The notes under the pieces: model-generated
Told to the model about the DNA's origin: nothing
The model's input: only the letters and a program-made list of their open reading frames with translations
Databases searched by the model: none
Shown: positions 1,035 to 31,669 of the stretch, in pieces
How the letters are laid out: each line of letters begins with the position of its first letter
Position numbering within the stretch: position 1 is the stretch's first letter
Source of the DNA: a virus
Length of the DNA: 33,061 nucleotides
IMG/VR virus record: IMGVR_UViG_3300017738_000017
Coordinates: 1-33,061 of that record
Direction: 5' to 3' (one strand)
Translations under genes and position numbers: made by a program

Positions 1035-2881
1035 GGAGTGCGGTAGATGTCTTTTCACACATAACTCAAAACGGCAAACGCGCACGGTGTCCAGAATGCG
1101 ATGATGGCACGGTGCGCAAGCAAGGCACGGTGCAGATCAATGGTGAGTATGCCTATTGCCATAAGTGTCAGGACAGTTGGGATTTCAGTGAAAAGACAGT
1201 TAAAACCCCGAAGGTAGAATATAAACTCACCAACACCAAGGTCAAAGTAGAGTCAAAAGAGGTCAAAAAGAGTGGTTATGCAAGTGCGCGGGATACGTTC
1301 GTTGCGCATTGGCAGAAGGCAGTGGATGAGTTGGAGTTGCCTTGGAACGAGAAGTGCTTGGACCTGCCCATTGGCGTAAGGCGTGACGATAAGAAGAATG
1401 CGCAGTTGGTGTTCCAGATCAATGAGAATCATGTAAAATTTCATAAAGGACCGCAGTTCGGTGACGCGGAATGCAAGGCGTTTGAGACTCCGCATTTATC
1501 TCTCTCCACACTTGTGATCTGCGAAGGCGAAAAAGACGCTGTCACCGCATACTGCAATGGCGCATCCGCTCTGACCTATACGTCAGGTGCGGGTGCGCTG
1601 CCTGCTAAACTAACCTTGCCGTCTAGATATAATAAGGTATACATAGTGTACGATAATGACGAAAAAGGCGAGGAAGGTGCTAAAAAACTCGCTAGAAAGC
1701 TATTCGAGCATAAGGTTGAGTTGTATGTTATGCAGTGGGGTGAGAAGCCTTTAAGGTATGACCTTACCGATTGGTTCAGCGATGGCCATACACTAGATGA
1801 GTTGTTGGTGTGTTGCGTGCGGTATGGTGACAAACCAGAGGACATTGGCGGGATGCGTAGCTTTAGTCCATCGCAGTTTGCTAAGACCTTTGTCAAGATG
1901 CCAGAACCTATTATTGAGGATCTATTCTTTGAGAAGGACATTATGGGTCTTGCAGGTGGTACGAATGTGGGTAAGTCGGTGATGAGCTTGCAATTGTCCA
2001 CATGTTTGGCTTTAGGAGTGCCGTTCTTAGGCTTTAGAATACCGAAGCCTAGGAAGGTTATGCATGTGCAGTTTGAGCTGAAGGATGAGAGTTTCAAGCA
2101 GTTGATCGAGCGGACCGCGATGCATTTTGTTAAGAAGTATCCTGTGGAAGCAGAGCGGTTCGATAAGAATCTGAGTATCTTGAGCAGTGGGCAGAACAAT
2201 GTCTTCACCGATAAATGGGAAGAAATGGACGCGAATCTAACCTTTGACCCTTGCGATGTGTTGGTGGTGGATAACTTGTATACTAGTACCAATAAGAATG
2301 TGAGCAAGAACGATGATGTGATGGACCTGTTGCGTACGATGGTGAATATGAAGAACAAGCATAAGGTAGCTATTCTGATGGTATCGCATCATAAGAAGTT
2401 GGGCGAGGCGAGTCCATTGGATGTGAGTATGATGTTGGGCGGGAGTGCGTACACGAATCATCTGGATGGTATCGTACAGCTTGCGAGTAGCAATCGTATG
2501 CCTGGATTAAAGGTGATGAAGATCACGAAGGTGCGGAGCCAGAACGATCTTCACGGTGTGCCAGTTGGAGTTAAGTTGCATAATGTTAGTGATGGTGATC
2601 TGTATTTTGAATACTTGAAGCCGTTGCCAAAGAATGAAATGTTCTGGTATACGGACCCAAAGGAGTCAGTAGAAGAAAAAGTATTGCAGGCAATTGCGAC
2701 AGAAGGGCAGAACTTTAGCCGTGAAATGTTTAAGGCTGCGTTGGAATCTGTGGTAAATGTTGGTAGCAATACAGCGGTTGCAAATTGGTTAGAACGAATG
2801 ATAAAACAAGGACTAATTAGTAAGATCGGGCATGGGCAATATCGCAAATTGGAAACTGAACTGGACAGTTTTAACGATTAG
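1031..2881 (+). CDS. DNA primase-helicase (zinc ribbon, Toprim, RecA-like ATPase)
   Basis: The 616-residue protein is built like a phage primase-helicase. An N-terminal zinc ribbon has Cys20-x2-Cys23 and Cys43-x2-Cys46. A Toprim domain follows with EGEKDA at 165-170 and DND at 208-210, the metal-binding acidic motifs. A RecA-like ATPase has Walker A GGTNVGKS at 309-316, Walker B ending at Asp414 (DVLVVDN) and a SHH sensor motif about 35 residues later. The C-terminal 75 residues look like a winged helix. The ATPase core looks closer to RepA/AAA_25 than to T7 gp4. The start is TTG at 1031, overlapping the previous stop; no in-frame ATG lies upstream of the first Cys pair. It should unwind the fork and prime replication, possibly at the repeats just downstream. 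Confidence 0.9.
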   Translation: MRSAVDVFSHITQNGKRARCPECDDGTVRKQGTVQINGEYAYCHKCQDSWDFSEKTVKTPKVEYKLTNTKVKVESKEVKKSGYASARDTFVAHWQKAVDELELPWNEKCLDLPIGVRRDDKKNAQLVFQINENHVKFHKGPQFGDAECKAFETPHLSLSTLVICEGEKDAVTAYCNGASALTYTSGAGALPAKLTLPSRYNKVYIVYDNDEKGEEGAKKLARKLFEHKVELYVMQWGEKPLRYDLTDWFSDGHTLDELLVCCVRYGDKPEDIGGMRSFSPSQFAKTFVKMPEPIIEDLFFEKDIMGLAGGTNVGKSVMSLQLSTCLALGVPFLGFRIPKPRKVMHVQFELKDESFKQLIERTAMHFVKKYPVEAERFDKNLSILSSGQNNVFTDKWEEMDANLTFDPCDVLVVDNLYTSTNKNVSKNDDVMDLLRTMVNMKNKHKVAILMVSHHKKLGEASPLDVSMMLGGSAYTNHLDGIVQLASSNRMPGLKVMKITKVRSQNDLHGVPVGVKLHNVSDGDLYFEYLKPLPKNEMFWYTDPKESVEEKVLQAIATEGQNFSREMFKAALESVVNVGSNTAVANWLERMIKQGLISKIGHGQYRKLETELDSFND

Positions 2882-2895
2882 CGCGTGCAAAGAGA

Positions 2896-3017
2896 ATGCG
2901 GAATATGCGGAATATGCGGAATTTCAAATTCCGCTAGGCGGTGAAAAAAAGGAATATGAGAAACTGTAGTTATAGAGGAGAGAGAGAGAGATATTCTTCA
3001 TATTCTTCATATTCCGC
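2896..3017 (+). repeat. Iteron-like repeats and palindrome, candidate replication origin
   Basis: Immediately after the primase-helicase stop, ATGCGGAAT is repeated three times without gaps (2896-2922). The last copy merges into a perfect palindrome, GCGGAATTT (2916-2924), C, AAATTCCGC (2926-2934). About 57 bp further on, TATTCTTCA occurs twice in tandem (2992-3009) and runs into ATATTCCGC (3009-3017), the inverse of the GCGGAATAT in the first block. A GA-rich tract lies between. Direct iterons plus inverted copies beside a replication gene fit an origin; a large RNA hairpin or terminator is an alternative. Confidence 0.5.
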
Positions 3018-3032
3018 TTCTCAGCACCTCTA

Positions 3033-3251
3033 GTGATTTCTGCTTCAAAATGCCCACTTTCAAAGAAAGATGATAAATCTTGCGAATTTGTGCAGATCGC
3101 TAGTGATGGTGAACGATGTGCGCTGGTTTTGGAGTGGTACGATGACCTGCGAGTTTGCAATTTGGACAGGTGCTGGTTGCGGTTGCGCACGCGTGACAAA
3201 CTGGCGTGGCGGAACCGTATGCTGAAAAAGAAAAAACCCCTGAGTGAATAA
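3033..3251 (+). CDS. Hypothetical Cys- and Arg-rich protein, 72 aa
   Basis: An open frame with a GTG start and TAA stop lies between the repeat block and an AT-rich stretch. The product has five Cys, several Trp and a basic end (RLRTRDKLAWRNRMLKKKKP). Its codon use (CGN and CGG arginines, GCG) resembles the neighbouring primase gene rather than random AT-rich DNA. Against it: no ribosome-binding site precedes the GTG, no ATG is available near the start, and I recognise no family. It could be a small nucleic-acid-binding protein, a gene remnant, or chance. Confidence 0.3.
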   Translation: MISASKCPLSKKDDKSCEFVQIASDGERCALVLEWYDDLRVCNLDRCWLRLRTRDKLAWRNRMLKKKKPLSE

Positions 3252-3444
3252 TATAATTTGCAAAAAAACCCTGCGAACCAGATATAAAAACCCTGCCAGT
3301 ATAATATAATAACAGCATAATTAACCATATTTGGATGCGAAAATGGACCAAAAAAGCTCAAAACGGGCATTTTAAAGAAATTCAAAAAACCGCTTTAAGT
3401 CAATTAATGAAATTTTTTAGAAATTTAACTGTAATTTTAGGCAC
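3252..3444. other. AT-rich non-coding stretch with short direct repeats
   Basis: I see no gene in these 193 bases. AAAAACCCTGC occurs twice, at 3264-3274 and 3286-3296, and ATAATATAAT occurs near 3248 and at 3301-3310, so a small unit appears partly duplicated. The high A+T content next to the iteron-like block would suit a DNA unwinding element. The stretch also separates the plus-strand replication genes from the converging minus-strand island and ends at the terminator at 3445-3468. Confidence 0.4.
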
Positions 3445-3468
3445 AAAAAAACCCGCATAAATGCGGGT
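3445..3468 (-). terminator. Rho-independent terminator closing the minus-strand island
   Basis: The stem arms ACCCGCAT and ATGCGGGT (3451-3458 and 3461-3468) pair perfectly. On the minus strand the hairpin is followed directly by a T run (A run at 3445-3450 on plus), the classical intrinsic terminator form. It lies 27 bases beyond the stop of the 26-residue gene, the last of the minus-strand set. On the plus strand the downstream sequence is only moderately T-rich, so it may also weakly stop readthrough from the replication genes. Confidence 0.85.
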
Positions 3469-3494
3469 CAATTTGTTGGTTTATTGGTTTAAGA

Positions 3495-3575
3495 CTATGA
3501 CAAAATGAACAGTATTAACCAGATGAAAAAACAAACCAAAACATATGTTTTTAATACCTGTTCGAACTCTTCCAT
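3495..3575 (-). CDS. Membrane micropeptide, 26 aa
   Basis: The frame starts at ATG 3575-3573 and ends with TAG at 3497-3495. It is preceded by AAAAAGAGAGG with 7 bases to the ATG, the same ribosome-binding sequence that serves the other four genes on this strand, and is followed closely by the terminator. The peptide has a short acidic N-terminus (MEEFEQVLKTY) and a hydrophobic C-terminal span rich in Val, Phe, Ile and Leu, so it should insert into the membrane. No family is recognised. The signals at both ends are better evidence than the sequence, which is too short for confident homology. Confidence 0.6.
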   Translation of the reverse strand: MEEFEQVLKTYVLVCFFIWLILFILS

Positions 3576-3578
3576 TTA

Positions 3579-3746
3579 CTAACCTCTCTTTTTTAGTTGT
3601 TCAATCTGTGCATCCATCGAATCCCAATCGCGATTGCTCCAGGTGGCTTTATATCGCTTCAAATCGCGCTCCGCTGCGGTGACGGTCTTATATGGACCAT
3701 ATACCCAAGGATCCGTTGAATCATGAGTTACAATAATTACAAACAT
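3579..3746 (-). CDS. Hypothetical protein, 55 aa
   Basis: The ATG at 3746-3744 follows AAAAGAGAGG with 8 bases spacing; TAG lies at 3581-3579. The product begins with a beta-strand-like MFVIIVTHDSTDPWVYGPYKT, then an Arg/Lys- and Trp-containing helix, and ends with MDAQIEQLKKRG. The order FVIIVTH...VYGPYKT...AERDLKRY resembles small phage proteins with a beta-hairpin followed by an amphipathic helix, but I cannot name the family. It is the fourth gene of the minus-strand island, three bases before the membrane micropeptide. A 98-base gap separates it from the 105-residue gene upstream and contains two short hairpins (near 3778-3800 and 3808-3825). Confidence 0.65.
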   Translation of the reverse strand: MFVIIVTHDSTDPWVYGPYKTVTAAERDLKRYKATWSNRDWDSMDAQIEQLKKRG

Positions 3747-3844
3747 ATTTAAACCTCTCTTTTATTAGTTTCCATATATCCGCCCATATATGAGCGGATT
3801 TCACGCGGTAACTATCCGCGCTCTTCAGTATGGTTTAAAGCGTT

Positions 3845-4162
3845 TTATGATTGCCTGCACATGGATTTTTTTATCATAACGAATTTAATTTTCTTTAAAG
3901 CGTCTATCATTTCATCGTATTGATATTGATAATCTTCAATAGTGCTTTCATCACCGTACAACGCTTTTTCCTCATATTCAATGACTTCTTTTATTACTTT
4001 CGTTTCACTTGTTAAATATTCATATAATAAATTTAATGTCCATATTGAATGATTTTCTAGATCATGAGAATATTTAAAAACCTTCCTTAGTTCGTTTAAA
4101 TCATTAATGCATGTATCAAGTGAAACTTCTATTGCATTGTTTTGCAACTCATTTAATTTCAT
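3845..4162 (-). CDS. Hypothetical acidic helical protein, 105 aa
   Basis: ATG at 4162-4160 is preceded by AAAAAGAGAGG at 7 bases. The product is strongly helical and acidic in its middle (EVIEYEEKALYGDESTIEDYQYQYDEM) and basic at its end (KKIKFVMIKKSMCRQS). No transmembrane span or enzymatic motif is visible, and no family is recognised. It lies 17 bases after the GP88 gene in the same transcript. Small acidic helical proteins of this kind often bind and inhibit host proteins, but that is only a possibility here. Confidence 0.7.
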   Translation of the reverse strand: MKLNELQNNAIEVSLDTCINDLNELRKVFKYSHDLENHSIWTLNLLYEYLTSETKVIKEVIEYEEKALYGDESTIEDYQYQYDEMIDALKKIKFVMIKKSMCRQS

Positions 4163-4179: not shown

Positions 4180-4758
4180 TTAGTGTTTAATTAATCCGAT
4201 ACGGTTGGCTGTGATCATCTTCATATCATTAACAGAACAATCAATGAACCGCGCTTTTTTTAGCTCTTCTTTAGTGTCAAATATTACAGCGCGCTTGTCG
4301 GTTGCTTTTATTTTATGATCCATCTTACCACCAGTTGAAAAACAAAAAATAAAGTTGACTGGCAATTTTACCGCCTGGAGTAATGGAACGCTTTTTGTGT
4401 ATCCATAAAAAATAATCTTTGGATTATTGCACGCAATTTCTAACCAAGATTTTAAATAGTTCATACTGTAAAAATCTCCGCTTGAATGAATGCGCACAAA
4501 TTCAACGCGTTTTTTTGTTAGTTCTTTTTGTATCTGTTCAATAAATGCGGGCGCATTTAATGTTAGTTCATAATTAAAATTATACTTTGCTTGAACGTTT
4601 GGATATTTGAAAGTACCTTTATCCGCGTAACAAATCTCTTTGCAAGTATCCGCCCACGGGCAAGAACTCACAGCGGGCAAGTTAAACTCATACAAGCGCG
4701 CATTGTTTAATTTAGCGGTCTTTTTTATTTTACTGTTTGTGTTAGTTAATAGGTTCAT
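4180..4758 (-). CDS. GP88-family phage protein
   Basis: The 192-residue protein matches the general pattern I know for the phage GP88 family: a Lys-rich N-terminus (NSKIKKTAKLNN), LPAVSSCPWADTCKEICYADKG with Cys33-x5-Cys39-x3-Cys43, an Asn/Tyr-rich helix, VRIHSSGDFYS at 88-98, then NPKIIFYGYTKS at 112-123. The Cys triad followed by alternating strands and helices with a conserved SGD resembles a reduced radical-SAM-like barrel, but the Cys spacing is not the canonical CxxxCxxC, so chemistry is uncertain. The role is unknown. The ATG at 4758 overlaps the upstream stop by ATGA and follows AAAGAGAGAGG. It is the only gene of this island with a recognisable family. Confidence 0.75.
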   Translation of the reverse strand: MNLLTNTNSKIKKTAKLNNARLYEFNLPAVSSCPWADTCKEICYADKGTFKYPNVQAKYNFNYELTLNAPAFIEQIQKELTKKRVEFVRIHSSGDFYSMNYLKSWLEIACNNPKIIFYGYTKSVPLLQAVKLPVNFIFCFSTGGKMDHKIKATDKRAVIFDTKEELKKARFIDCSVNDMKMITANRIGLIKH

Positions 4759-5096
4759 TTTACACCTCTCTCTTTAGTTAATAGTTGATCAAAATATTTT
4801 AAATTGCTACGTATAACGCTCCAAAGCTCTCCCATATCATCAGTGCTAAATATTTCATCACTAGGAACATAATCTTCAGCGTAATGTATACCATAGGAAT
4901 TATCCATATATAAGAAAATAAGTATTGCGCCGCGGTTTGTATCGTATTGCGCTCCCCACGTTAAACCTTCATCATTTAAATCAGTCCAATCATTAAACCC
5001 TAATAGTCCAAAGTGTATACAATATTCTAGCTCATGATTAAAATCATATGAGTTATGAAATTTATATGGTTCATATACTTGTTTATACTTATTCAT
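4755..5096 (-). CDS. Hypothetical acidic protein, 113 aa
   Basis: First gene of the minus-strand island. ATG at 5096-5094 follows AAAGAGAGAGG at 6 bases. The product is rich in Tyr, Trp, Asp and Asn (for example GLTWGAQYDTNRGAILIFLYMDNSYGIHYAED), with alternating short strands and an acidic surface. Its tail carries TDDMGELWSVIRSNLKYFDQLL, probably a helix. No family is recognised. The stop overlaps the GP88 start. Its position next to the two candidate minus-strand promoters makes it probably the first protein made from this strand; acidic proteins in such positions are often DNA mimics or host inhibitors, which I offer only as a possibility. Confidence 0.7.
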   Translation of the reverse strand: MNKYKQVYEPYKFHNSYDFNHELEYCIHFGLLGFNDWTDLNDEGLTWGAQYDTNRGAILIFLYMDNSYGIHYAEDYVPSDEIFSTDDMGELWSVIRSNLKYFDQLLTKERGVK

Positions 5097-12157: not shown

Positions 12158-15100
12158 ATGGCATCATTCAAGAATTTGATTAGCAACACATCAGCACAGA
12201 TAGCGTCTGGCGGAACGATAACAGGAGACTTGGTAATCAATGGTGACCTCCAAGTAGATGGCGGTGGGTCTCTTAGCTTTGACGAAATCATAGAAGGTAC
12301 TCAGGTTATAGATGTAACCAATACAGAAGCCTTACTGGTTAGAAAGAATGGTGATGGTGGTGACATATTTACAGTGGACACGACTAATGAAGATGTTGCT
12401 ATTGGTGGTACTCTTGCTGTTGTTACTACAACCAACTCAGATGTTTCAGTAGCAAATTTTCAAAGTGCTATAGATGCTAATGGAGAACATTCAATAATAC
12501 GAGTTGGTCATTCCAGTAAAGCCGCTCATATGGGGTTGTTATTAAACTCATCAGATACTGCATACTTTGGTATTGATGATAACCCAGATGATGGCAATGG
12601 AATCTATGTAGATGAGTCAGCAAATGTTGCAATCGGAGATAAATTACCATTAGCAAGATTGCACGTTCAAGGTTCATCAAGTGGGGCTGTTCAGGCTTTT
12701 ATTATTAATACTAATGGTGCAACCAATTCATCCACAGAATTAGTTTTTGGTAATTGGAGTGGTGCAATTCCTACAGGTACAGGAAATCCGGGTCCTCAAG
12801 CAAAGATTTCGGCTATAAATATAAATGCTAGCTCAGCAAACTCAGTTCTTGCATTCTCAACTTACAATAGTAGTGGTGTACTGAATGAAGTGATGAGAAT
12901 GACAGACACACAAAAGGTTGGGATTGGAACTTCTTCTCCGTCAGGTAAGCTAACTTTGTCAAATGGTTCAGCATCTGCACCTTTAACTATTACAGCAAGT
13001 AACTCATACATACAGTTAGGTAGTGGAGATTATGGTTCTGGTGGGTTAGGTAAGTTTATGATTGGCTTTGGTTATACTGACACATTAACCAATACACACT
13101 CTCCTGCATATATAGGCTTTGAAGAAACATCCACTTCTGGAGACACAAAAGGTGATTTAACATTTTATACAAGAAATGTAGTTACAGATACTGCACCTAC
13201 AGAACGTCTGCGTATTGATGCGACAGGAAATATGGGACTTGGAATGACACCATCTTCAAGGCTATCAATAAAAGCCAATGGTGATACTTCTACTGTATTG
13301 GACATACACGGAAGAAGCTCAGATGACTTTGCAATTATTTCGTTTAAGGAAAATGCCAGTCAAACTGTAAAAGGTCAAATCAAGGTTGACGGCTCTGATA
13401 GTATGATATTTAGAACTGGGCCATCAACTGATGCACTCACAATAACCTCTGGCAACACGGCTACTTTTGCTGGTGCAATTACTTCTGGCGGTAATATAAG
13501 TATTCCGTCTGGAAATCTATTATACTTAGATGGTACGAGTAACACATACATTTATGAATCAACAGCGGATACAATGTCTTTTGCTACTAATTCTGGTATC
13601 AGATTTCAGCTTGATAACAACTCCCGAATCTCACTCTCTAATAATAGTGGTAGCGGTACAAACAATACGCTTTTTGGAAAATTAGCTGGTAATGATATAG
13701 CCTCTGGTGGAAATAACAACTCATTTTATGGACACCTTGCTGGAACTGAAATAACCACAGGCGAAAAAAATACAATGCTTGGAGCATTTGCTGGTTATAC
13801 ATCTTTATTGCCTGACAAGTGTGTTTTAGTTGGGTATAATGCTGGTGGTAGTGGTGTAATGACTGCTGCTGCTGATGGCACTGTTGCAGTAGGAATGAAC
13901 GCTTTAAGCAATTTGACCTCTGGAGCAAATAATTTAGCAATAGGATTTGAAGCTCTTGATGCTTGCAATACTGGAGTTTCAAACATTGCTGTTGGTTCTG
14001 GTGCTTTAGGAGCATTGACTGATGCAGTGGCTAATGTTGCAATGGGATTAGGAGCATTAGGAACAAATGTTTCAGGTAATTACAATACAGCTTTTGGACA
14101 TCAAGCATTACAAACTTTTAATGCTGATGTAGATGCAAATAATGTAGCAGTAGGAATAAACGCTCTTCAAGCATCAAATACAGGAACAAACAATACAGTT
14201 GTAGGTGCTTTTTCTGGAGATGCAGTGACTACTCAAAGTAACTTAGTTTTAATTGGTTCAGATGCTGGTGGGGCAATTAGTAATAATGCCGCTGATGGTA
14301 CAGTAGCTATTGGTAGGTCTGCACTTGCATCATTGACATCTGCGACTAAAAGCACGGCAGTCGGATTTGAGGCGTTAAAGGGTAATACAATTGGTCACGA
14401 AAATACAGCATTTGGGTACAATGCCTTAATGACAAATGTAGATGGAGATAGTAATACTGCAATCGGTGGTGACTCATTAAAAATTTATGAACCTGCTGAT
14501 GGAGTTGGTCAGAATACTGCTTTAGGTTTTCAATCTGGCGATGCTCTTGTAACAGGAAGTGCAAACACTTTAATTGGTTTTCGAGCTGACACAGATGATA
14601 ATGCTGGAGTAAATCAAACAGTAATTGGTTCTACTGCACAAGGACAAGCAGACAACTCAGTAACACTTGGTAATGCAGATGTAACTGCTGTTTATATGGC
14701 ACAAGACAGTGGTGCTACAGTTCATTGTGCTGGTATAAAATTTGATGCATCTGGAGAGGTTCTTGGAGATTATGAAGAAGGTACTTATACAGTAACACTA
14801 ACACCATCTGGAAGTGGCTCTATAACAGTTGATAGCACTTACGATACAGCATCTTATACTAAAATTGGAAGGCAAGTAACAGTCATGGGTCATGTCGATT
14901 CATCGGCTATTAGTAGTCCAGAAGGATTTATTAAAGTAAATGTTCCTTTTACGATTGGAGATGGAGCTGAACTGTCACAGAGAGGAAGTGGCTCTGTATT
15001 TATATACAATTCGAGTGCCAACATTCAAGATTTTGGTGTTTTTATGGCAGAAGGTGAGGCATTTTTTAGAGTTTATTTGACCACAGGAGCTGGGCTTGGT

Positions 15101-15166
15101 TCAACATCAGCAAATCAAATAGATGCATCAACAAGCATACAATTTGCAGTAACATACTTTGTATAG
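12158..15166 (+). CDS. Large fibre / receptor-binding protein with YadA-head-like repeats
   Basis: The 1002-residue protein starts with a fibre-type N-terminus (ITGDLVINGDLQVDGGGSLSF, then EALLVRKNGDGGDIFTVDTTN). Several segments like RLRIDATGNMGLGMTPSSRLSI and VGIGTSSPSGKL follow, which are common in phage fibres. Residues 503-845 carry about 20 copies of a NtaiGxxAL-type repeat like the YadA trimeric-adhesin head. The C-terminal 135 residues contain GDYEEGTYTVTLTPSGSGSI and YTKIGRQVTVMGHVD, a domain often found at receptor-binding tips. No S74 self-cleaving chaperone is visible. It is expected to be a trimer. Start ATG 12158 follows GTAGGAG. Its place beside the capsid gene leaves open a head fibre. 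Confidence 0.85.
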   Translation: MASFKNLISNTSAQIASGGTITGDLVINGDLQVDGGGSLSFDEIIEGTQVIDVTNTEALLVRKNGDGGDIFTVDTTNEDVAIGGTLAVVTTTNSDVSVANFQSAIDANGEHSIIRVGHSSKAAHMGLLLNSSDTAYFGIDDNPDDGNGIYVDESANVAIGDKLPLARLHVQGSSSGAVQAFIINTNGATNSSTELVFGNWSGAIPTGTGNPGPQAKISAININASSANSVLAFSTYNSSGVLNEVMRMTDTQKVGIGTSSPSGKLTLSNGSASAPLTITASNSYIQLGSGDYGSGGLGKFMIGFGYTDTLTNTHSPAYIGFEETSTSGDTKGDLTFYTRNVVTDTAPTERLRIDATGNMGLGMTPSSRLSIKANGDTSTVLDIHGRSSDDFAIISFKENASQTVKGQIKVDGSDSMIFRTGPSTDALTITSGNTATFAGAITSGGNISIPSGNLLYLDGTSNTYIYESTADTMSFATNSGIRFQLDNNSRISLSNNSGSGTNNTLFGKLAGNDIASGGNNNSFYGHLAGTEITTGEKNTMLGAFAGYTSLLPDKCVLVGYNAGGSGVMTAAADGTVAVGMNALSNLTSGANNLAIGFEALDACNTGVSNIAVGSGALGALTDAVANVAMGLGALGTNVSGNYNTAFGHQALQTFNADVDANNVAVGINALQASNTGTNNTVVGAFSGDAVTTQSNLVLIGSDAGGAISNNAADGTVAIGRSALASLTSATKSTAVGFEALKGNTIGHENTAFGYNALMTNVDGDSNTAIGGDSLKIYEPADGVGQNTALGFQSGDALVTGSANTLIGFRADTDDNAGVNQTVIGSTAQGQADNSVTLGNADVTAVYMAQDSGATVHCAGIKFDASGEVLGDYEEGTYTVTLTPSGSGSITVDSTYDTASYTKIGRQVTVMGHVDSSAISSPEGFIKVNVPFTIGDGAELSQRGSGSVFIYNSSANIQDFGVFMAEGEAFFRVYLTTGAGLGSTSANQIDASTSIQFAVTYFV
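13664..14690 (+). repeat. Coding repeats: about 20 YadA-head-like units
   Basis: Within the fibre gene, units of 14-30 residues end in a short motif of type N-T-A-[IFV]-G-x-x-A-[LG], for example NTAFGYNAL, NNLAIGFEAL, SNIAVGSGAL, NTVVGAFSG and NTALGFQSG. In YadA-type adhesins each such unit forms one turn of a left-handed parallel beta-roll. DNA identity between units is modest, so the array is old rather than freshly amplified, but it could still recombine. Composition here is more AT-rich than in the flanking capsid genes. Confidence 0.85.
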
Positions 15167-20195: not shown

Positions 20196-20618
20196 ATGAT
20201 GGCAATCACTTTTGAGAATGTCATCTTTGATAGAATTATTAATAACATTAATAGTATTATTGCAAATGAATTTGGGATACAAATATTTTATGATGAGCAT
20301 CAAGGCAATCAGAGTTTTCTTTTACAACCTGTTAGCGATGAAATCATTGACACTCTTTCACATGGACAGATAAGAGAAGTGACTGTCAGCATACAATACG
20401 AATTAGATTTAAGTAACAACATAACAAAGAATTCATTTAAACAGGTAATGAGTATAACAGAAAGATTAAAAAGATTGTTGTTCAACAATAATACATATAG
20501 CGTCAGTAGTGAAAATCAATTTCGTAATGGCAGCGTAGGTAGCGTTGGGTATGAGCAGGAAGATGACAAGATTAGAAGTATTACTACATTTACATGTCAA
20601 ACATTGGAGTTAGTATGA
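20196..20618 (+). CDS. Tail terminator / tail completion protein
   Basis: The 140-residue protein has the layout of gpU/gp17-type tail terminators: an N-terminal helix (ENVIFDRIINNINSIIANEF), a strand-rich centre (IQIFYDEHQGNQSFLLQPVS), REVTVSIQYEL with alternating residues, and a helix ITERLKRLLFNN before the last strands (RSITTFTCQTLELV). Such proteins cap the tail tube and join it to the head. Start at ATG 20196 (or the adjacent ATG 20199) after TTAAAGG. The identification rests on fold-like pattern and position between connector and tube. Confidence 0.65.
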   Translation: MMAITFENVIFDRIINNINSIIANEFGIQIFYDEHQGNQSFLLQPVSDEIIDTLSHGQIREVTVSIQYELDLSNNITKNSFKQVMSITERLKRLLFNNNTYSVSSENQFRNGSVGSVGYEQEDDKIRSITTFTCQTLELV

Positions 20619-20806
20619 AAGTTAAAGCAAACTCAGAATATAAAAAGCTATCAGATGATAAGAATTTTATTTCTCTTGGGCATTTATCAACCCATTTGCG
20701 CTTATTAGAAGGTCAAGAAGTAGAAATACATAAAGATAAGTTACCTTTACCAAAGGCGCTATTAAAGGCATTAGAAAGTAAAAACATTAAAAGTGAGGAA
20801 AAATAA
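20615..20806 (+). CDS. Small tail-region protein, 63 aa
   Basis: ATG 20615 overlaps the stop of the tail terminator (ATGA) and follows GGAGTTAGT, favouring it over the upstream in-frame ATG at 20594. The product is Lys-rich: MKVKANSEYKKLSDDKNFISLGHLSTHLRLLEGQEVEIHKDKLP, then a helix KALLKALESKNIKSEEK. The phrase LR.LEGq.VEI..... suggests an SH3-like or OB-like small barrel. No family is recognised. It overlaps the tail-tube gene by TAATG, so it is probably produced with tail proteins. Confidence 0.65.
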   Translation: MKVKANSEYKKLSDDKNFISLGHLSTHLRLLEGQEVEIHKDKLPLPKALLKALESKNIKSEEK

Positions 20807-21819
20807 TGGCTAAAAGTTCAATATTTCAAACCAGCCAACAGACAAATGTTATTATAGGTACTGAAGATACATTTGGCACAAAGGTGGCTGCTGATGCTGC
20901 AATAATTCATATGCCAGTTACGAGCTATAGTTTTAGTGAAGTAGCCAATCATACATTGGCAGTTGCTCCATTTAGACAAGGCGCAGGCGGAGCAACGCAA
21001 TCAACAGAAATGGTAAAGGCGCAACGACATGATAGAATGTATGAAATAACCTTAGAGTTTATGGGTTCAGCTCAAGCTATTAGTCGTGTTTGTAACGCAT
21101 TGTATGGTGATGCAAGTAATCCTCATGCCTTAATTGGTTCAATGCCTACTACTAGTAATATTAATGGTAGCACAGCAGTACCAGTTACATTGTATTTTGA
21201 AAAAGGTAGCGCAAGTGCAGCGAATACTGCATTATCATTTAAAAGCTGTATGTGTACATCATTTACCTTATCTGGAGATATTGGCGGTAATGGTGGTGTT
21301 ATTATGGGTTCAGCTACATTTGTTACTGGATTTGCTCCAGACAAGGCAAACATTTCTTTTAGTGGAGGTACTGAAACTACCATAACCGCACAAACAAGTT
21401 ATTTTAATATGCATGATCTTTCTGCAACAACTATAACGCATTCTAGTAGCACTGAAGATTTAGTGTTATTTTCTTTTGAATTAAATATTGCACGATCAGT
21501 TAATAGAGTAGGATTTGATACTGCTGCAAATGGATTTGCACCATTAGGATATGTTATTGGTGGATACGAAGTTACTGGCAGTATGGTCGTTAAGCGTGAT
21601 GCGGAATCTGATGCAGCAATTACCCACGCTGACACCGCTGAACCAGTATGTGCGATTAGTATTTCAGATGGATCATTTCAAATTGAAGCACCAAAAGCAA
21701 TTATCGACCAAGCATCTATTAATTTCGATGAAGATGGTTTTAAAACTGTTATTCCATTTCGTTGTACTTATGATGCAGCGGCTACATCAAATTCAGTGGT
21801 AGATATACATACAGCATAA
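20806..21819 (+). CDS. Major tail (tube) protein
   Basis: The 337-residue beta-rich protein has features of siphovirus tube proteins: N-terminal NVIIGTEDTFGTKVAADAA, then FRQGAGGATQSTEMVKAQRHDRMYEITLEF, a long Ser/Gly/Thr-rich middle, and near the end GGYEVTGSMVVKRDAESDA and FDEDGFKTVIPFRCTYDA. The pattern G..TFGT...d.....P, then two beta-sandwich halves, is typical. It builds the hexameric rings of the tail tube. It precedes the tail chaperone pair and the tape measure, the canonical gene order. ATG 20806 overlaps the previous stop (TAATG) and follows GAGGAAAAA. Confidence 0.85.
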   Translation: MAKSSIFQTSQQTNVIIGTEDTFGTKVAADAAIIHMPVTSYSFSEVANHTLAVAPFRQGAGGATQSTEMVKAQRHDRMYEITLEFMGSAQAISRVCNALYGDASNPHALIGSMPTTSNINGSTAVPVTLYFEKGSASAANTALSFKSCMCTSFTLSGDIGGNGGVIMGSATFVTGFAPDKANISFSGGTETTITAQTSYFNMHDLSATTITHSSSTEDLVLFSFELNIARSVNRVGFDTAANGFAPLGYVIGGYEVTGSMVVKRDAESDAAITHADTAEPVCAISISDGSFQIEAPKAIIDQASINFDEDGFKTVIPFRCTYDAAATSNSVVDIHTA

Positions 21820-22132: not shown

Positions 22133-22530
22133 TGCACCGCGTTGCGATGTGGATGAGTTTTCGCAATCAACCTAGTCGCAACCTGCATTTCCCATATAAA
22201 GCCAAATCTCCAACGCTTAAAAAAACTATCACATATGATGAAGATGAATTATGGAATGAGATATGGCGTATTGTAGATGAGAATAAAGATGGGAAATTCA
22301 CGCTTGGTGCTGCGTTATATCATTCACTAGTGTTCTGTGCCGACTCAACATACTTTGTAACGCCTGAGACCATATTTACGCTTGAGGAGTACATGGCTAT
22401 GAAGCGATTCAATCTATCTTTAGCAAATACTATAGATGAAGCAGATTATCACCGTTTAGTCATCTTTTCTGCTATTGATGAAGAATTTAATGCACTCCAA
22501 CAAGAAGATATAAAGAAACAAAATGGCTGA
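22132..22530 (+). CDS. Tail assembly chaperone, downstream frame (T-like extension)
   Basis: The 132-residue frame begins HRVAMWMSFRNQPSRNLHFPYKA, a phrase not like a normal N-terminus, and continues with acidic helices such as YDEDELWNEIWRIVDENKDGKF. It has no independent good ribosome-binding site; its ATG overlaps the upstream stop (TAATG). It is most likely made mainly as the C-terminal half of the -1 frameshift product from 21866-22126, equal to the T part of lambda gpGT, which recruits tube subunits. It overlaps the tape measure start by 8 bases. Confidence 0.75.
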   Translation: MHRVAMWMSFRNQPSRNLHFPYKAKSPTLKKTITYDEDELWNEIWRIVDENKDGKFTLGAALYHSLVFCADSTYFVTPETIFTLEEYMAMKRFNLSLANTIDEADYHRLVIFSAIDEEFNALQQEDIKKQNG

Positions 22531-24562
22531 AAAGAAATTTATAATTGAGGTTCGCACCAAAGGTTTTTCACGAGCTACTAAGGATTTTAAGACCTTAAAT
22601 ACAGATGGAGATAGGTTTGTAAGAACAACAAAGCGCATGCGTCGATCAACAAGGGGCCTAGAAGCAGGACTTGGGTCACTACGTAATCGATTATTAGTGA
22701 ACTCTTTTGCAATCGCAGCAATTACAAAAAGTTTTCAAATATTCTTTCGTACCGCTATACAGTTTGAAGATGTAAAAACTAGGTTAGTTGGCCTGACTGG
22801 CAGTATTGAAGGTGCAGAATTTGCTTTTGATAAATTAAGTAAGGTTGCATCTAACACGCCATTTGCATTAGGTGACGTGGTTAATGCAGGTGCGCAGTTA
22901 GAAGCATTTGGGGCAAGCGCAACTAAAACCATTACGCCTATAACAGACCTAGCTGCGTTTATGGGTACTACAGCAACTGAAGCAGCAAATGCTTTTGGTC
23001 GTGCCTATGCGGGAGGAGCAGGTGCGGCTGACATATTAAGGGAAAAAGGCGTACTTAATATTGTTAAATCTTTTAAAGGAATTGAAGATTTAAGCAAATT
23101 AACATTGCCAGAATTTAGAGAAGCATTGCAAGCTGCGTTAGTAGACCCAACGGTAGGTATTGAAGGCAGTGCAGATAGAATGTCAAAAACATTTTCTGGT
23201 GCAATGAGTAATATGGGTGACTCTCTTTCTAGATTGACAGCCGCTATTGCATCAGATTTTTTACCGTTGGTCACAGAAATGGTTCAAGGTGTTACTGCTA
23301 TATCTGATGCTGGAGTAGACTTTTTTACTGGAGATCAAAGAACAATTGCGGATGTATTTGGACTGGCCGCTTCTAAAAGAGAAATTAGCTCATTCACCAC
23401 AGAAGACATACCACTACTGAAACAGGAAATTGATTCTTTACAGAAAGAGATAGATAAGCAATTACAAAAAAGAGAAAAGACACCTTTGGTCGATGGTATC
23501 ATTGGTTCTGGTATTCCAAATATTACAGGAGTAATTGAACCAATAAAAGCGATGCAGAATGAAACAAAAACATTTACCATATTGACAGGTGAAAATGCAG
23601 TAGCATTAGATAATAGTGGTACTAAGATATTTAACATGACAGAAGGTATTACGAGTATTTTGCAGCCAGTTCAAGACTTTACTAATGCCATCCAAGAAGA
23701 CAATCAAGTATTAGCCACATTTGGCGATTCATTAGACGTAAACCAAGGAAGGTTGCAATTATTAAAAGATAGAGTAATAGAACTAGAGACCGAGGAAACT
23801 AAACGAACAGAAGGTATAAGAGAGCAAACGCAAGCAGAAATGATAAGAGAGGCAGCAATCGCAGGTCGCATTGCATCGCAAGAAAGAGAAAAAGAATTAA
23901 CGACTGGTTTTATAAAGTTATTTGCTCAAACAGAAGAAGGTCAAAGAAAGAATATCCAAGCAACGATTGATATGGTTGAAGCAAATCGTGCATTGTTTGA
24001 AGCATTCGGTAATGTAGATGGAGTGCTTGCAATGTTAAATGTTAATTTAGATGAAGTAGGTGAAAAAAACACTAAATTAGCAGACACCACAACCATAGCA
24101 GTAAGCAGTATCAATGCAATGTCAAGCGCAATACGTACTCTAAAATCAGATTCCTCAGATACAGATAAACAACTTTCTGCTCTCTTGTCGGTTATAGGTT
24201 CATTTGCTAGTATTGCGGGTGGTCCAACAGGTCAAGTATTTGGAGCTTCTTTAAATTTACTTTCAGCTTTTATTGGGCATACTGGTGGACTGATTACTAA
24301 TAAAGGTATACAACGGTTCGCTACTGGCGGCATGGTGCAAGGCCAAGACAATGTACCGATTATGGCGCAGGCAGGTGAATTTGTTATGCGCAGAGATGCA
24401 GTGCAGAACATTGGTGTGCAAAACTTAGCACAGATGAACCGTACTGGGCAAAGTGGTAGTATCAACGTCAATATACAAGGAAATGTTATCGGTAATGAAC
24501 AGTTTGTACGAGACACATTAATGCCTGAAATTGAAAATACCATAGCAAATGGATTAGCGTAA
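22523..24562 (+). CDS. Tape measure protein
   Basis: The 679-residue protein starts with a helical region (IIEVRTKGFSRATKDFKTLN, then RLLVNSFAIAAITKSFQIFFRTAI) and contains TMP motifs: QFEDVKTRLVGLTGS, ASNTPFALGDVVNAGAQLEAFG and AFGRAYAGGAGAADILREKG. Long helices and a Glu/Lys-rich coiled coil (430-520) follow. The end has RFATGGMVQGQDNVPIMAQA and a Gly/Asn-rich tail, typical of TMP C-termini. It sets tail length; by the usual 0.15 nm per residue the tail would be about 100 nm. The start ATG 22523 overlaps the chaperone. No peptidase or muramidase insert is seen. Confidence 0.9.
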   Translation: MAEKKFIIEVRTKGFSRATKDFKTLNTDGDRFVRTTKRMRRSTRGLEAGLGSLRNRLLVNSFAIAAITKSFQIFFRTAIQFEDVKTRLVGLTGSIEGAEFAFDKLSKVASNTPFALGDVVNAGAQLEAFGASATKTITPITDLAAFMGTTATEAANAFGRAYAGGAGAADILREKGVLNIVKSFKGIEDLSKLTLPEFREALQAALVDPTVGIEGSADRMSKTFSGAMSNMGDSLSRLTAAIASDFLPLVTEMVQGVTAISDAGVDFFTGDQRTIADVFGLAASKREISSFTTEDIPLLKQEIDSLQKEIDKQLQKREKTPLVDGIIGSGIPNITGVIEPIKAMQNETKTFTILTGENAVALDNSGTKIFNMTEGITSILQPVQDFTNAIQEDNQVLATFGDSLDVNQGRLQLLKDRVIELETEETKRTEGIREQTQAEMIREAAIAGRIASQEREKELTTGFIKLFAQTEEGQRKNIQATIDMVEANRALFEAFGNVDGVLAMLNVNLDEVGEKNTKLADTTTIAVSSINAMSSAIRTLKSDSSDTDKQLSALLSVIGSFASIAGGPTGQVFGASLNLLSAFIGHTGGLITNKGIQRFATGGMVQGQDNVPIMAQAGEFVMRRDAVQNIGVQNLAQMNRTGQSGSINVNIQGNVIGNEQFVRDTLMPEIENTIANGLA

Positions 24563-26889
24563 TGCCTTATGGTTCTAGTGTAAAATCTTCTAATATAAAA
24601 GAAAACTGGTTAGTGCAATTAGCCTTTGCTCATCGTTCAACCAATGGAGATGGTGGTTTTGACCAGATTCTACAAGCAAGTGGAGCAGTCAACTTAGTAG
24701 ATGATTCTGGTGGTTTTAGCGACACTTCAACAAGTTTTACAATAGATGATGGAGATGTTCTACTTGCTGGTGATTATATAAAGATTGATAATGAAATAAT
24801 GTTAATATCTAAAATTTCTGGTGATTTAATTTTTATCGATAGAGGTCAGTTAGATACATCACCTGCCAGTCATAATGATAATGCAGTTGTTAATTGGAAT
24901 AATTTTGTACCACTAGCATTTTCTAATGTAAGAGATAAAGACTTGTTTTATCATGGTGTTATTATTAATAAACCTAAAATTAGAGAATCAATTAATTTAC
25001 AAAAATCAATTGCTAAAACGTCTAATGTTTCAATTCAATTGCATAATTTTACTTACAAAGGCAATCAATTAAGCCAAGATGTATTTGGTACAGCAAACGA
25101 TTACATAAATAGAGAAATGAGATTATTATCTAAAATTAACGATGATAATGCCTTTCAAATTGGAACATTTAGATTAAATGATTTACGATTAAAAGATGAA
25201 GTATTGACATTGCAGTTTAATACACACAGACCATTTGACGATGTGCAGTTTCCACAAGCCAAGACAACTAGCACTAATATTTATGTTCCATATGTTGTTG
25301 GTGATTATGATGAAAATGATAGCTCGTTTAATACTCCAGCTTTTTGTGATACAAATCTTTATCCAGTTCCTGTACATAGCGTTGATGAAGAAAGAATTAG
25401 AACTATTATGCCAAGATCATATAATTCTGGTTCTGGTAGCCAAATAAATATTCATCATGGTGAAGATGTTTTTTTACCACTACAAGCTCAAACAGGTGCA
25501 GTTACTGATGCGACAACAACAATAGAGAATGTTGATGCGCTGGAGAGCAGGACCAGTAGGCGTGCAGCAGGTCGCGTTTTTGCACTTGAGAGTCGTAACA
25601 GGACAGGAACAAATACAGAATTTTCAAATACTCATTTGGCGTTTGACAGAGATATTGACACTGCTGCGAGCGTTAGCGTAAGTGGCACTACTAACTATGC
25701 TATTGGATTTACTTCAGTAGCAGAAAAGTGGGCAACTCACAGATTATTTAACATTAGATTGCGTCATAAGCATTCTGCCAATGCTACCTTTAATGTGTTT
25801 ATTTATGAAGGAGAATCGCTATATGCGTCTAGTTCTATTACGTTTTCAGCAAACACATTTAGAGCAGATAATGTATCTCCAGGAACTATAAAAGAGTTAG
25901 GTAAGCAATGGACAATTATATATCAAAAGGCATCTGGTAGCGATGGTACTCTTTCAGTTGGTTCAGTAAAACTCGATATTGATACTGCTTTTGATACGTC
26001 TGATAAAGATGAATTAAAAAAACTAGGTGACGTTAAATTTTTTTATAGTGGTGGTAATGGGTTAAAAGATGCATGGAGTGATACAGCAGCAATGACTGAG
26101 ATTCACGAAGTACATAGAGATTTACTTGTAAGATTTACAGATATTGGCACAACTACTCCAGATGGATATAGTGATTTAGATAGTGCGAAAGATTGGAGAA
26201 TTAGATATTGGCAACTTGATCAGAAATTGTTAAGCAATGTATTAGAAAAATTACAATACGAAGGTGGATTTATTTTTAGATATAGATATAATGGTAATCC
26301 GCAATATCTTTTTGTTAAAGATTCTTACACTTCCACAGATGCAACATTTAGCAAAGATGACATTAAGAACGTACAGTTAGAGATAACTAAAGTAAGTGAC
26401 CTATTAACTAAACAAGAAATTTCTTATCGTAAACATCCCGCAGAATCACGGTATATCACTACAGTGGTTGCATCTAATGATAGCGTAAGAAAGCGATATA
26501 ATGTTGGAAGTAATGAAAATAGACAATCAGTTACTTTAAATATGTACGTGGGAACCACTACGAGTAATAACGATATACCTACATCACCATCTAGCAATCC
26601 AAATGATGATTTTTATAGTTATTATGACTATATAAGTGGCGATATAAAACTATTAATTTCATTTGATATTGTAAATCCTGCAAAATGGGTTACAATAAAT
26701 GATACTTCAGATCCTTTAGAACCATTAGAGGTAGGATCAATTATTGATTTTGATAATGATAATATGTTTCCAGAAACGCCATTTGGAATAAACTCATCGT
26801 CATGGTCTACTATTAAGTTTATTATTACTGACTTTACAAGAGAAATAGGAAAGGTAAAAGTGAAAGCAAGGCAAATCGCAACAGGATAA
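24562..26889 (+). CDS. Tail hub / baseplate protein
   Basis: The 775-residue beta-rich protein begins at the TAATG overlap with the tape measure. Phrases such as FSNVRDKDLFYHGVIINKPKI and IAKTSNVSIQLHNFTYKG, and DYINREMRLLSKINDDNAFQIGTFRLND, fit the hub domains of distal tail proteins. A middle segment (GTTNYAIGFTSVAEKWATHRLFNIRLRHKHSANATFNVFIYEG) looks like an inserted carbohydrate-binding-like sandwich. The rest, with WQLDQKLLSNVLEKLQYEGGFIFRYRYNGNPQYLFVKD, is like hub domain IV. It should form the tail tip below the tape measure. The exact family is uncertain. Confidence 0.7.
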   Translation: MPYGSSVKSSNIKENWLVQLAFAHRSTNGDGGFDQILQASGAVNLVDDSGGFSDTSTSFTIDDGDVLLAGDYIKIDNEIMLISKISGDLIFIDRGQLDTSPASHNDNAVVNWNNFVPLAFSNVRDKDLFYHGVIINKPKIRESINLQKSIAKTSNVSIQLHNFTYKGNQLSQDVFGTANDYINREMRLLSKINDDNAFQIGTFRLNDLRLKDEVLTLQFNTHRPFDDVQFPQAKTTSTNIYVPYVVGDYDENDSSFNTPAFCDTNLYPVPVHSVDEERIRTIMPRSYNSGSGSQINIHHGEDVFLPLQAQTGAVTDATTTIENVDALESRTSRRAAGRVFALESRNRTGTNTEFSNTHLAFDRDIDTAASVSVSGTTNYAIGFTSVAEKWATHRLFNIRLRHKHSANATFNVFIYEGESLYASSSITFSANTFRADNVSPGTIKELGKQWTIIYQKASGSDGTLSVGSVKLDIDTAFDTSDKDELKKLGDVKFFYSGGNGLKDAWSDTAAMTEIHEVHRDLLVRFTDIGTTTPDGYSDLDSAKDWRIRYWQLDQKLLSNVLEKLQYEGGFIFRYRYNGNPQYLFVKDSYTSTDATFSKDDIKNVQLEITKVSDLLTKQEISYRKHPAESRYITTVVASNDSVRKRYNVGSNENRQSVTLNMYVGTTTSNNDIPTSPSSNPNDDFYSYYDYISGDIKLLISFDIVNPAKWVTINDTSDPLEPLEVGSIIDFDNDNMFPETPFGINSSSWSTIKFIITDFTREIGKVKVKARQIATG

Positions 26890-26891
26890 AT

Positions 26892-27950
26892 ATGGCAAAT
26901 CAAAACATACGTACACCAAGATTTTATACAGACTTAATTAACTATCACAGAGCGCGTGGTAGTGCAGTTGGTACTGTTACCGCAACCAATACATCTAATG
27001 AATTTATTGGTTTACCCGCCACAAATACAGTGGATGATTTGTTAGACTTACGACCATTAAATCAAGTCACTTTTGACACAAGTTCGCAAACAGGTCATCA
27101 TGTATTGTTTAATGTTGCATTTACTACTGCTTCATACAAGCAAACATACATTGCAATATTAAATCATAATTTAAACTCTTGTAATGGCAGATTTAAAGTG
27201 TTTGCTGGTAACGAAGCTAGTGATATAACAGCATTGGATGGCGCAAATGCAGATACAGCGGATGTTAATTGGAGTACAGCGGGTGTTGTAGAAATAATTA
27301 ATGCCGATATAAGAGCAGCAAGCGATAGTAATAAAACTGGCACTATAACGCCAGATTCCGATGGTACTACCATTGTAGCCGTCAATGAATTAAACCTGCG
27401 CTATTGGGCAATACAATTTGAAGGTGACACTGCATGGGATAGTAGCACAGATTTTAAATGCGGTGGTATAATGATCGGTGAACACTTTGATATGCCACAC
27501 TCTCCAGATCTTAATCTTACGCGCAGTATAATATATGACAAGGTCAATATAAATGAATCAGTAGGTGGTCAGCGTTATGGCACATCAACGAGCTTTGGTA
27601 GAACAGCATCAAGCACCTCTAAAAGTCCATTTGCGTTAGGAACTTATGGTCAGGCAGTGTATGGTGGGCGTATCGCATATGATATGAATTTTAGCTACCT
27701 TGCAGCCAGTAATGTTTTGCCATCAGAAACAACAGTATATCAATTTTCAGATGATTCGGTAGTGTCCGATGTCTGGAATCTAACCGATGGACCACATAGA
27801 CCGTTTATATTTAATATTGACAATGCAAGCACAGCAAGTAATGCCGAATCTGAGTATATGTTTGCACGCTTTGCGCAGAACAGTTTAGACATGCAACAAG
27901 TCGCTCCAGACGTATATAACGTAGGCATGCGCATAGAAGAAGAGTTCTAA
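26892..27950 (+). CDS. Minor tail protein
   Basis: The 352-residue protein is mainly beta, starting NQNIRTPRFYTDLINYHRARG and with TVDDLLDLRPLNQVTFDTSSQTGHHVLFNVAF, then ILNHNLNSCNGRFKVFAGNE. The C-terminal half contains GGIMIGEHFDMPHSPDLNLT, YGQAVYGGRIAYDMNFSYL and EYMFARFAQNSLDMQQVAPDVYNVGMRIEEEF. The discoidin-like first half and the F-M-p-s-p-d...sr pattern are shared with distal tail proteins of many environmental siphoviruses. It lies at the end of the late block, 2 bases after the hub gene stop. It probably decorates the tail tip. Confidence 0.7.
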   Translation: MANQNIRTPRFYTDLINYHRARGSAVGTVTATNTSNEFIGLPATNTVDDLLDLRPLNQVTFDTSSQTGHHVLFNVAFTTASYKQTYIAILNHNLNSCNGRFKVFAGNEASDITALDGANADTADVNWSTAGVVEIINADIRAASDSNKTGTITPDSDGTTIVAVNELNLRYWAIQFEGDTAWDSSTDFKCGGIMIGEHFDMPHSPDLNLTRSIIYDKVNINESVGGQRYGTSTSFGRTASSTSKSPFALGTYGQAVYGGRIAYDMNFSYLAASNVLPSETTVYQFSDDSVVSDVWNLTDGPHRPFIFNIDNASTASNAESEYMFARFAQNSLDMQQVAPDVYNVGMRIEEEF

Positions 27951-31400: not shown

Positions 31401-31638
31401 TTATGTCGTGTTTGGCGGAAGAAGACAGCATGTATTCAAAAAGAGAGAACAGAAGAGAAATTTAGATGCGGAGCTTGCGGACAAGACCATATTCTATTGT
31501 ACCAGTTGTAAGCGGTGCTATGAACCATCGCGAGTCAACTGGCAGGATTATACGCACTATTATGAAGATTTTGTGAGTTACGGCAAACCAAGAAAAATAT
31601 GCAAGAAGTGCAAACCCGACAAAAGTGCGAATGTATGA
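31393..31638 (+). CDS. Zinc-ribbon protein, 81 aa
   Basis: The product has a basic start (GGRRQHVFKKREQKRN) and two Cys pairs, FYCTSCKRCYEPSR (Cys-x2-Cys plus a further Cys) and KICKKCKPDKS, about 30 residues apart with aromatic residues between (NWQDYTHYYEDFVSYGKP). This fits a zinc-binding domain like those of small phage transcription or HNH-associated proteins, but there is no HNH motif. ATG 31393 follows AAAGGAGTTGAT and overlaps the previous stop by 8 bases. Its end is close to the C5 methyltransferase start. Confidence 0.65.
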   Translation: MASYVVFGGRRQHVFKKREQKRNLDAELADKTIFYCTSCKRCYEPSRVNWQDYTHYYEDFVSYGKPRKICKKCKPDKSANV

Positions 31639-31669
31639 AAAGGATGACATTGGCTTGGTGGACGCTACC

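Follow-up and report, generated by a model that had tools for sequence, protein, structure and literature searches.

Introduction

In the SaPI Rep and SCCmec Cch2 proteins, a C-terminal domain recognises short repeats that lie directly 3′ of the protein's own helicase gene, and both proteins are reported to load themselves and to bind as two hexamers (PMC7581432). In phage P4, the alpha protein is at once a primase and a helicase and carries a winged helix that binds the repeats of the origin; pRN1 ORF904 has a C-terminal winged helix and a required 3′ element, whose sequence is poorly conserved among relatives (both PMC4234260). In the PLE RepA origin and ICP1 Odn, the iterons of the origin covary with the DNA-binding domain, and both are exchanged in modular fashion (PMC8263062); the iterons of geminiviruses differ between close relatives, which has been read as a sign of diversifying selection (PMC12548392).

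The sequence studied here, IMG/VR record IMGVR_UViG_3300017738_000017, is a stretch of 33,061 bases from an uncultured phage; we refer to the whole of it as the window. Its two ends are identical over 123 bp (a terminal direct repeat), so that the genome is probably circular, with 32,938 bp. Behind a primase-helicase gene it carries an array of 9-bp units, which a previous sequence-only reading had taken for an iteron origin with an AT-rich unwinding element. As with SaPI Rep and its ori, a predicted C-terminal DNA-binding domain is accompanied by short repeats just behind the gene, here in 68 of 68 loci. Unlike SaPI Rep and Cch2, which are DUF927 or Primase_Cterm/D5-like, with AEP primases, the enzyme of the window is a single chain that has both a primase of the Toprim type and a helicase like those of T7 gp4 and Twinkle, and its unit has 9 bp where that of Cch2 is AAGTG.

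The likeness to P4 alpha is one of domain order, with primase, helicase and predicted winged helix in one chain, from which a like function may be supposed. The P4 helicase belongs to superfamily SF3; the helicase of the window has only RecA-like SF4 relatives and none in SF3, and its array, unlike that of P4, lies just behind the gene. Because the helicase and primase types differ, the system is a member of neither the SaPI nor the P4 type. With pRN1 it shares a Rep protein with a C-terminal winged helix (predicted here) and an element just behind the gene, whereas pRN1 combines an AEP primase with an SF3 helicase, and its stem-loop lacks iterons; the window has iterons, and pairing between their arms is not conserved. 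The PLE system differs in its RepA_N domain, its semi-palindromic iterons of about 30 bp and in belonging to a satellite rather than being a phage's helicase, and the geminivirus Rep, for which a study of 2001 reportedly paired amino acids with bases by comparison, is an unrelated rolling-circle protein of plant viruses.

That iterons covary with a DNA-binding domain is already known from PLE RepA, and that they diversify between close relatives from geminiviruses. The novelty here lies in the pairing with an enzyme of the T7/Twinkle type and in a resolution down to single residues over many natural variants; a literature search, conducted mostly outside subscription papers, returned no report of a T7-type primase-helicase that reads an array at its origin.

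Results

The primase-helicase gene occupies positions 1031-2881 on the plus strand (TTG start, stop codon 2879-2881) and encodes 616 aa, with a zinc motif, a Toprim primase, a RecA-like helicase and a predicted C-terminal winged helix (phrog_239, 2e-28; Pfam AAA_25 and Toprim; profile searches; AlphaFold). Profile matches of the enzyme part in the PDB were to T7 gp4, DnaG and Twinkle, and C20, C43, C46, the Toprim EGEKD and the Walker GKS are invariant; zinc motif, Toprim and RecA-like helicase stand in a single chain, as is characteristic of the T7 gp4/Twinkle primase-helicases. None of the 40 ORFs of the window scanned against PHROGs was called as a DNA polymerase, one weak polymerase/primase match being the primase-helicase itself, so the phage likely uses a host polymerase.

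AlphaFold models of residues 534-616 (helix-strand-helix-helix-strand-strand, mean pLDDT 76.8) and of the full-length protein (mean pLDDT 77.9) both end in a winged helix, codons 546-606 (2666-2848, plus strand), and we propose this domain as the reader of the repeats. The recognition helix is predicted at residues 580-592 (2768-2806), with strands at 596-600 and 603-606, which places residue 581 (codon 2771-2773) at the start of the recognition helix and residue 601 (His, codon 2831-2833) at the turn of the wing. These are the usual DNA contact points of winged-helix domains. Foldseek's better matches were mostly winged-helix DNA-binding domains, none of them at E<=0.001, and the Pfam matches of the domain were weak ones to winged-helix families.

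A script located eight 9-bp sites 3′ of the helicase stop codon, at 2898, 2907, 2916 and 2949 on the plus strand and at 2926, 2991, 3000 and 3009 on the minus strand. In the block they define (2898-3017), a tandem of three forward units is followed by a palindrome partner, by one copy in the middle and by an inverted tandem, again of three units. The forward arm reads GCGGAATAT twice (A1, 2898-2906; A2, 2907-2915) and then GCGGAATTT (A3, 2916-2924), whose palindrome partner, GCGGAATTT on the minus strand (P, 2926-2934), follows across a 1-nt centre. The middle copy, AAGGAATAT (M, 2949-2957), lies on the plus strand, and a purine-rich spacer, TTATAGAGGAGAGAGAGAGAG (2970-2990), which comparison showed to be conserved in near relatives, leads to the inverted arm on the minus strand, GAAGAATAT twice (B1, 2991-2999; B2, 3000-3008) and GCGGAATAT (B3, 3009-3017). 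The repeats that had been picked out by the sequence-only reading are all there: three tandem ATGCGGAAT (2896-2922), the perfect 9-bp palindrome (2916-2924/2926-2934), two tandem TATTCTTCA (2992-3009) and the inverted GCGGAATAT that is unit B3.

The best three-copy period-9 tandem in the 33 kb of the window starts at 2896 and matches in 18 of 18 comparisons, while 100 first-order Markov shuffles gave at most 15 matches and never attained 17, so that the repeats go beyond chance. The pattern GMRGAATWT has 15 matches in the window against 3.1 expected, and its sole cluster is one of seven in the array block. Two other roles were considered and rejected: a genome-wide regulatory motif, as the window holds no second cluster of the unit, and a peptide code, for which an alternative frame of the window stays open through the array but that of a close relative (L002) is stopped upstream (judged by eye). 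No promoter-like match fell within the array in a scan of 2700-3900. Multiple direct repeats adjoining a putative initiator gene are the arrangement of iteron replicons.

Searches of viral contigs with the helicase gave 41 and then 80 loci, with many contigs in both sets; 68 loci, the window included, had the end of the helicase gene and the DNA behind it, and from these the array was extracted by script. Loci without C-terminus or downstream DNA (e.g. L022, L037, L038, L040, L136) and contigs fetched twice were left unused, L152 and L155-L157 were handled separately, and L140, L141 and L149, whose unit the script had misregistered, were excluded from the covariation tests. Units in both orientations stand behind the helicase stop codon in all 68 loci (helicase identity at least 37%), with at least seven sites in 60 of them, and the repeat layout is retained throughout this set. 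The sequence of the unit drifts among loci while the layout stays: GCGGAATAT, GGAGAATAT, TGAGAATAT, GAGGAATTT, GCAGAATAT and GTAGAATAT are found, as are GTGGAATAA, GGAGACTTT, GTAAAATAA, GTAAAAAAG and GTGTCATAA, matched across both arms. Within arrays the units agree at 8.07 of 9 letters, against 6.25 between arrays (35 unique arrays); the units of one array change in concert, in both arms alike.

The distance from palindrome unit to inverted arm falls into three clusters (43-45, 62-65 and 74 bp), which are separated by roughly whole helical turns in loci that are phylogenetically dependent. Letters 1-3 of the unit were common to one of 10 same-sample phage pairs, a small number of pairs, against 18% of all pairs. 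Three loci whose helicase has about 42% identity (L184, L197, L199) have a longer block, with an extra array cluster next to the short motif GTTCGC. The most distant relatives, L155-L157 (27-30% identity), have no array within 300 nt of the helicase gene; L155 and L156 (28-30%) keep a winged-helix-like C-terminus, and their binding sites may lie elsewhere. Bacterial genomes held only distant relatives of the helicase (best 27%, in a Marinimicrobia single-cell contig), and named phages gave partial matches at most, the best of which, if short Toprim matches (34-44%) are set aside, has about 27% identity and covers less than 52% of the query. The nearest terminases in the tool's ranking are those of Pelagibacter phages (30% identity), in whose annotated gene lists no primase-helicase appears.

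When the helicase C-termini were aligned beside their arrays, residues at two places were seen to follow the unit. The formal tests used 50 non-duplicates from the 68 loci and were conditioned on clade: for letters 1-3, residue 581 ranks first of 616 columns (1.33 bits, z about 9, 0 of 300 shuffles), and for letter 6 residue 580 ranks first. In leave-clade-out prediction, 601 was first for letter 9 (42 of 45), and 581 predicted letter 3 in 45.5 of 50. Over the 68 loci, Gly at 581, encoded by GGC and GGA in two clades, goes with GTA (3/3), Asn with xGA (15/15), Gln with GTG (3/3) and Arg with GTA (8/8), while Lys goes with GGA if residue 580 is Asn or Lys (7/7) and with GTA if it is Ser, Met or Thr (8/8). 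Ala accompanies GCA (seven loci) or GAA (two), with three further loci whose units were unregistered, and Thr accompanies GCG (six), GAG (four), GAA (one) or GTG (one). At 601, His goes with T as letter 9 (39/39), Arg with A (20/23) and Lys with G (four) or T (two).

Codon 581 lies 125 bp from the array, so that linkage contributes to this signal, and the neighbouring 72-aa gene (true ORF columns only) served as the linkage control. For letters 1-3, z>=4 was reached by four of 76 C-terminal columns, by none of the 535 columns in residues 1-540 and by none of 71 in the 72-aa gene. The signal for letter 9 is less exclusive: 601 is at the top, yet z>=4 is also found for 12 of the 535 columns that lie outside the domain. 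In a branch-coincidence test, which is weak and in which branch length is a confounder, residues 581 and 578 ranked highest for letters 1-3 (p 1.5e-4), with no specificity for letters 8-9 or for the whole unit.

For prediction out of sample, the rule was fixed after the first new locus (L197) and applied to 26 further loci, 20 of them non-duplicate. It was correct for letters 2-3 in 13 of 18 and for letter 9 in 14 of 18, and, leaving out loci found through repeat patterns, in 7 of 12 and 8 of 12 respectively. The misses at L238 and L240 arose because the script took the wrong strand; L347, L243 and L234 (letters 2-3) and L320 and L331 (letter 9) are real misses, and the correct Arg and Lys cases come mostly from lineages present in the training set. 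The relation is thus a good one near the family of the window and is no universal code.

Natural minimal pairs point the same way. Between the window and L002, 10 of 616 residues differ, eight of them in codons 575-597, and the units differ; between the window and L003 there are 15 differences, again eight in codons 575-597. In two same-unit pairs (L009/L010, L012/L041) none of the three differences in each falls within these codons, and between the window and L004 there are 56 differences, with G578, T581, H601 and the unit unchanged. The read region of L009 and L031 differs only by A581G and S584A, and GCA becomes GTA (GCAGAATAT against GTAGAATAT). L014 and L019 differ in 12 of 611 residues; one of these differences is H601R, and letter 9 passes from T (7/7 sites) to A (8/8), while L119 and L144 differ at residues 580-583 and 587, and GCAGAATAA becomes GTAAAATAA. 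From the covariation of residues 581 and 601 with the letters of the unit, together with these pairs, we conclude that the primase-helicase very probably binds the repeats of the array.

DNA identity in such comparisons is 0.96-0.975 upstream, 0.64-0.68 in codons 575-597 and 0.75-0.79 in the array (for the window and L003: 0.96, then 0.68 and 0.79), as if the codons of the recognition helix and the array moved as one cassette.

Behind the array in nearly all relatives comes a cysteine-rich ORF of 72 aa (3033-3251, plus strand; GTG start, ATG in some relatives), for which no Pfam or PHROG match was found; its product is a conserved small protein, perhaps zinc-binding. Further on, an AT-rich stretch at 3350-3449 adjoins a hairpin (3450-3469) that a terminator scan predicts to be a two-way intrinsic terminator between convergent gene sets. 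The AT-richness ascribed to this stretch is real (76% AT, 99th percentile of 100-bp windows), whereas the further direct repeats ascribed to it are weak. It lies at least 230 bp from the array, beyond another gene and beside the terminator, and in relatives the same place is also AT-rich (median 72%, 59 loci) and coincides with the convergent terminator region, so that the stretch is a candidate unwinding element only.

The minimum of cumulative GC skew that had been expected near 2,900-3,400 did not appear; there is instead a maximum near 3.4 kb, which follows the coding strand. We have rejected GC skew as an origin marker here, since the cumulative maximum is tied to gene orientation. At four-fold sites the exonuclease and helicase genes (378-2881), just upstream of the array, have a high skew of +0.33 to +0.35, and other plus-strand genes one near zero or negative, a pattern that is no sign of an origin either.

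Discussion

We consider that the block at 2898-3017 is probably an iteron-type replication origin, whose units would be bound by the winged helix at the C-terminus of the neighbouring primase-helicase. The earlier proposal that an iteron array belongs with the primase-helicase is strongly supported, by the layout in 68 of 68 loci and by covariation with the winged helix. The step from array to origin is one of analogy with SaPI Rep and P4 alpha: the partnership of array and helicase held, the skew minimum did not, and the role as origin would follow from the likeness to those systems.

A different use of the same binding has to be weighed first. The winged helix may read the array as an operator, as a roadblock between the helicase and the 72-aa gene or as a site of copy-number control, with the true origin elsewhere, and the fact that the inverted arm stops 15 bp short of the 72-aa ORF would suit such a role. 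Known helicases with a C-terminal origin-binding domain nevertheless bind repeats just 3′ of their own gene (SaPI; PMC7581432). Two inverted arms with a spacer suit loading, the scan of 2700-3900 placed no promoter-like match in the array, and the unit clusters nowhere else in the window; we therefore regard an operator or control site as unlikely.

Much less likely is that the element works through a stem-loop, formed in RNA or in single-stranded DNA on the model proposed for pRN1, with the arms changing together to preserve pairing. The strand does fold well (DNA z -4.0, equalled by 0 of 200 shuffles), and pRN1 has a required, poorly sequence-conserved stem-loop behind its rep gene (PMC4234260). 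Against this, the would-be partners A1:B3, A2:B2 and A3:B1 agree at 7.92 of 9 letters and other pairs at 7.99, and 1850 of 2000 permutations were at least as good. The would-be partners thus show no excess of likeness, and the arms resemble each other as collections of sites, not by forming a stem; pairing would also leave the prediction of letters from residues unexplained, and a match to an Rfam family is absent.

Neutral homogenisation of the units, by slippage or template switching, with the winged helix covarying through linkage only, is an explanation to which we give hardly any weight. It can draw on the impression that array and recognition-helix codons travel as one tract, but z>=4 for letters 1-3 is reached by none of 71 columns in the 72-aa ORF, which is equally close, and by 4 of 76 in the C-terminal domain, and clades that are separate show the same link of residue to letters (Gly and GTA, whether the codon is GGA or GGC; Lys and GGA, in L017/L021 as in L109). 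That the main reader is another phage or host protein, with the helicase only riding along, is equally improbable, as the covarying residues sit at the two points where the winged helix of the helicase itself is expected to touch DNA.

For an origin read by its own helicase, we propose that the start of the recognition helix (578-581) would read letters 1-3 of the unit and the wing tip (601) letter 9, and that the two inverted arms could recruit helicase-primase subunits, perhaps as two facing assemblies. The primase-helicase would then load itself on the array, open the DNA and prime, and replication would begin with the host polymerase. Recognition helix and array may be inherited and exchanged as a matched pair, which would give different origin specificities among related phages. 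A T7 gp4/Twinkle-type primase-helicase would in this way have gained a built-in origin-reading head, as in the unrelated SaPI Rep and P4 alpha.

More tentatively, and as a possibility that we would not call probable, this large family of uncultured metagenome phages may keep many mutually distinct origin specificities, both through a recombined cassette of recognition-helix codons and array and through single substitutions at two contact residues, because it pays to have an origin that cannot be used by co-infecting relatives, satellites or origin-targeting defences; the relation of residue to base would be regular enough for part of the origin to be predicted from the protein. The dozens of natural pairs of reader and site, some of them one or two contact residues apart, make the specificity relation directly testable, and why the origins of close relatives diversify, a question also asked of geminiviruses and of PLE and ICP1, becomes approachable here by sequence comparison alone.

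Some observations concern the wider gene content. A minus-strand gene at 4180-4758 belongs to the GP88 family (PF17338, 2.1e-39) and is present in some relatives only, and the minus-strand genes at 3845-4162 and 4755-5096 were unmatched in every relative genome fetched. The gene for a C-5 cytosine methyltransferase (31625-33040) extends into the terminal repeat and is missing or only partly matched in several relatives. In comparison with G002 (the genome of L003), the tail and other structural genes at 12158-15166, 20196-21819 and 22523-27950 are 31-52% identical, while most remaining genes are 95-100% identical, which indicates strong mosaicism. Genes divergent between the window and G002 (the tail fibre and other tail or structural ORFs) were considered as possible covariants of the repeat type and rejected, as they did not follow it (whole-gene identities, by eye). 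In-frame stops occur in the terminase of two records (G018, the source of L027, and G021, the source of L028) and in the helicase of L039, and reflect sequencing errors or decay.
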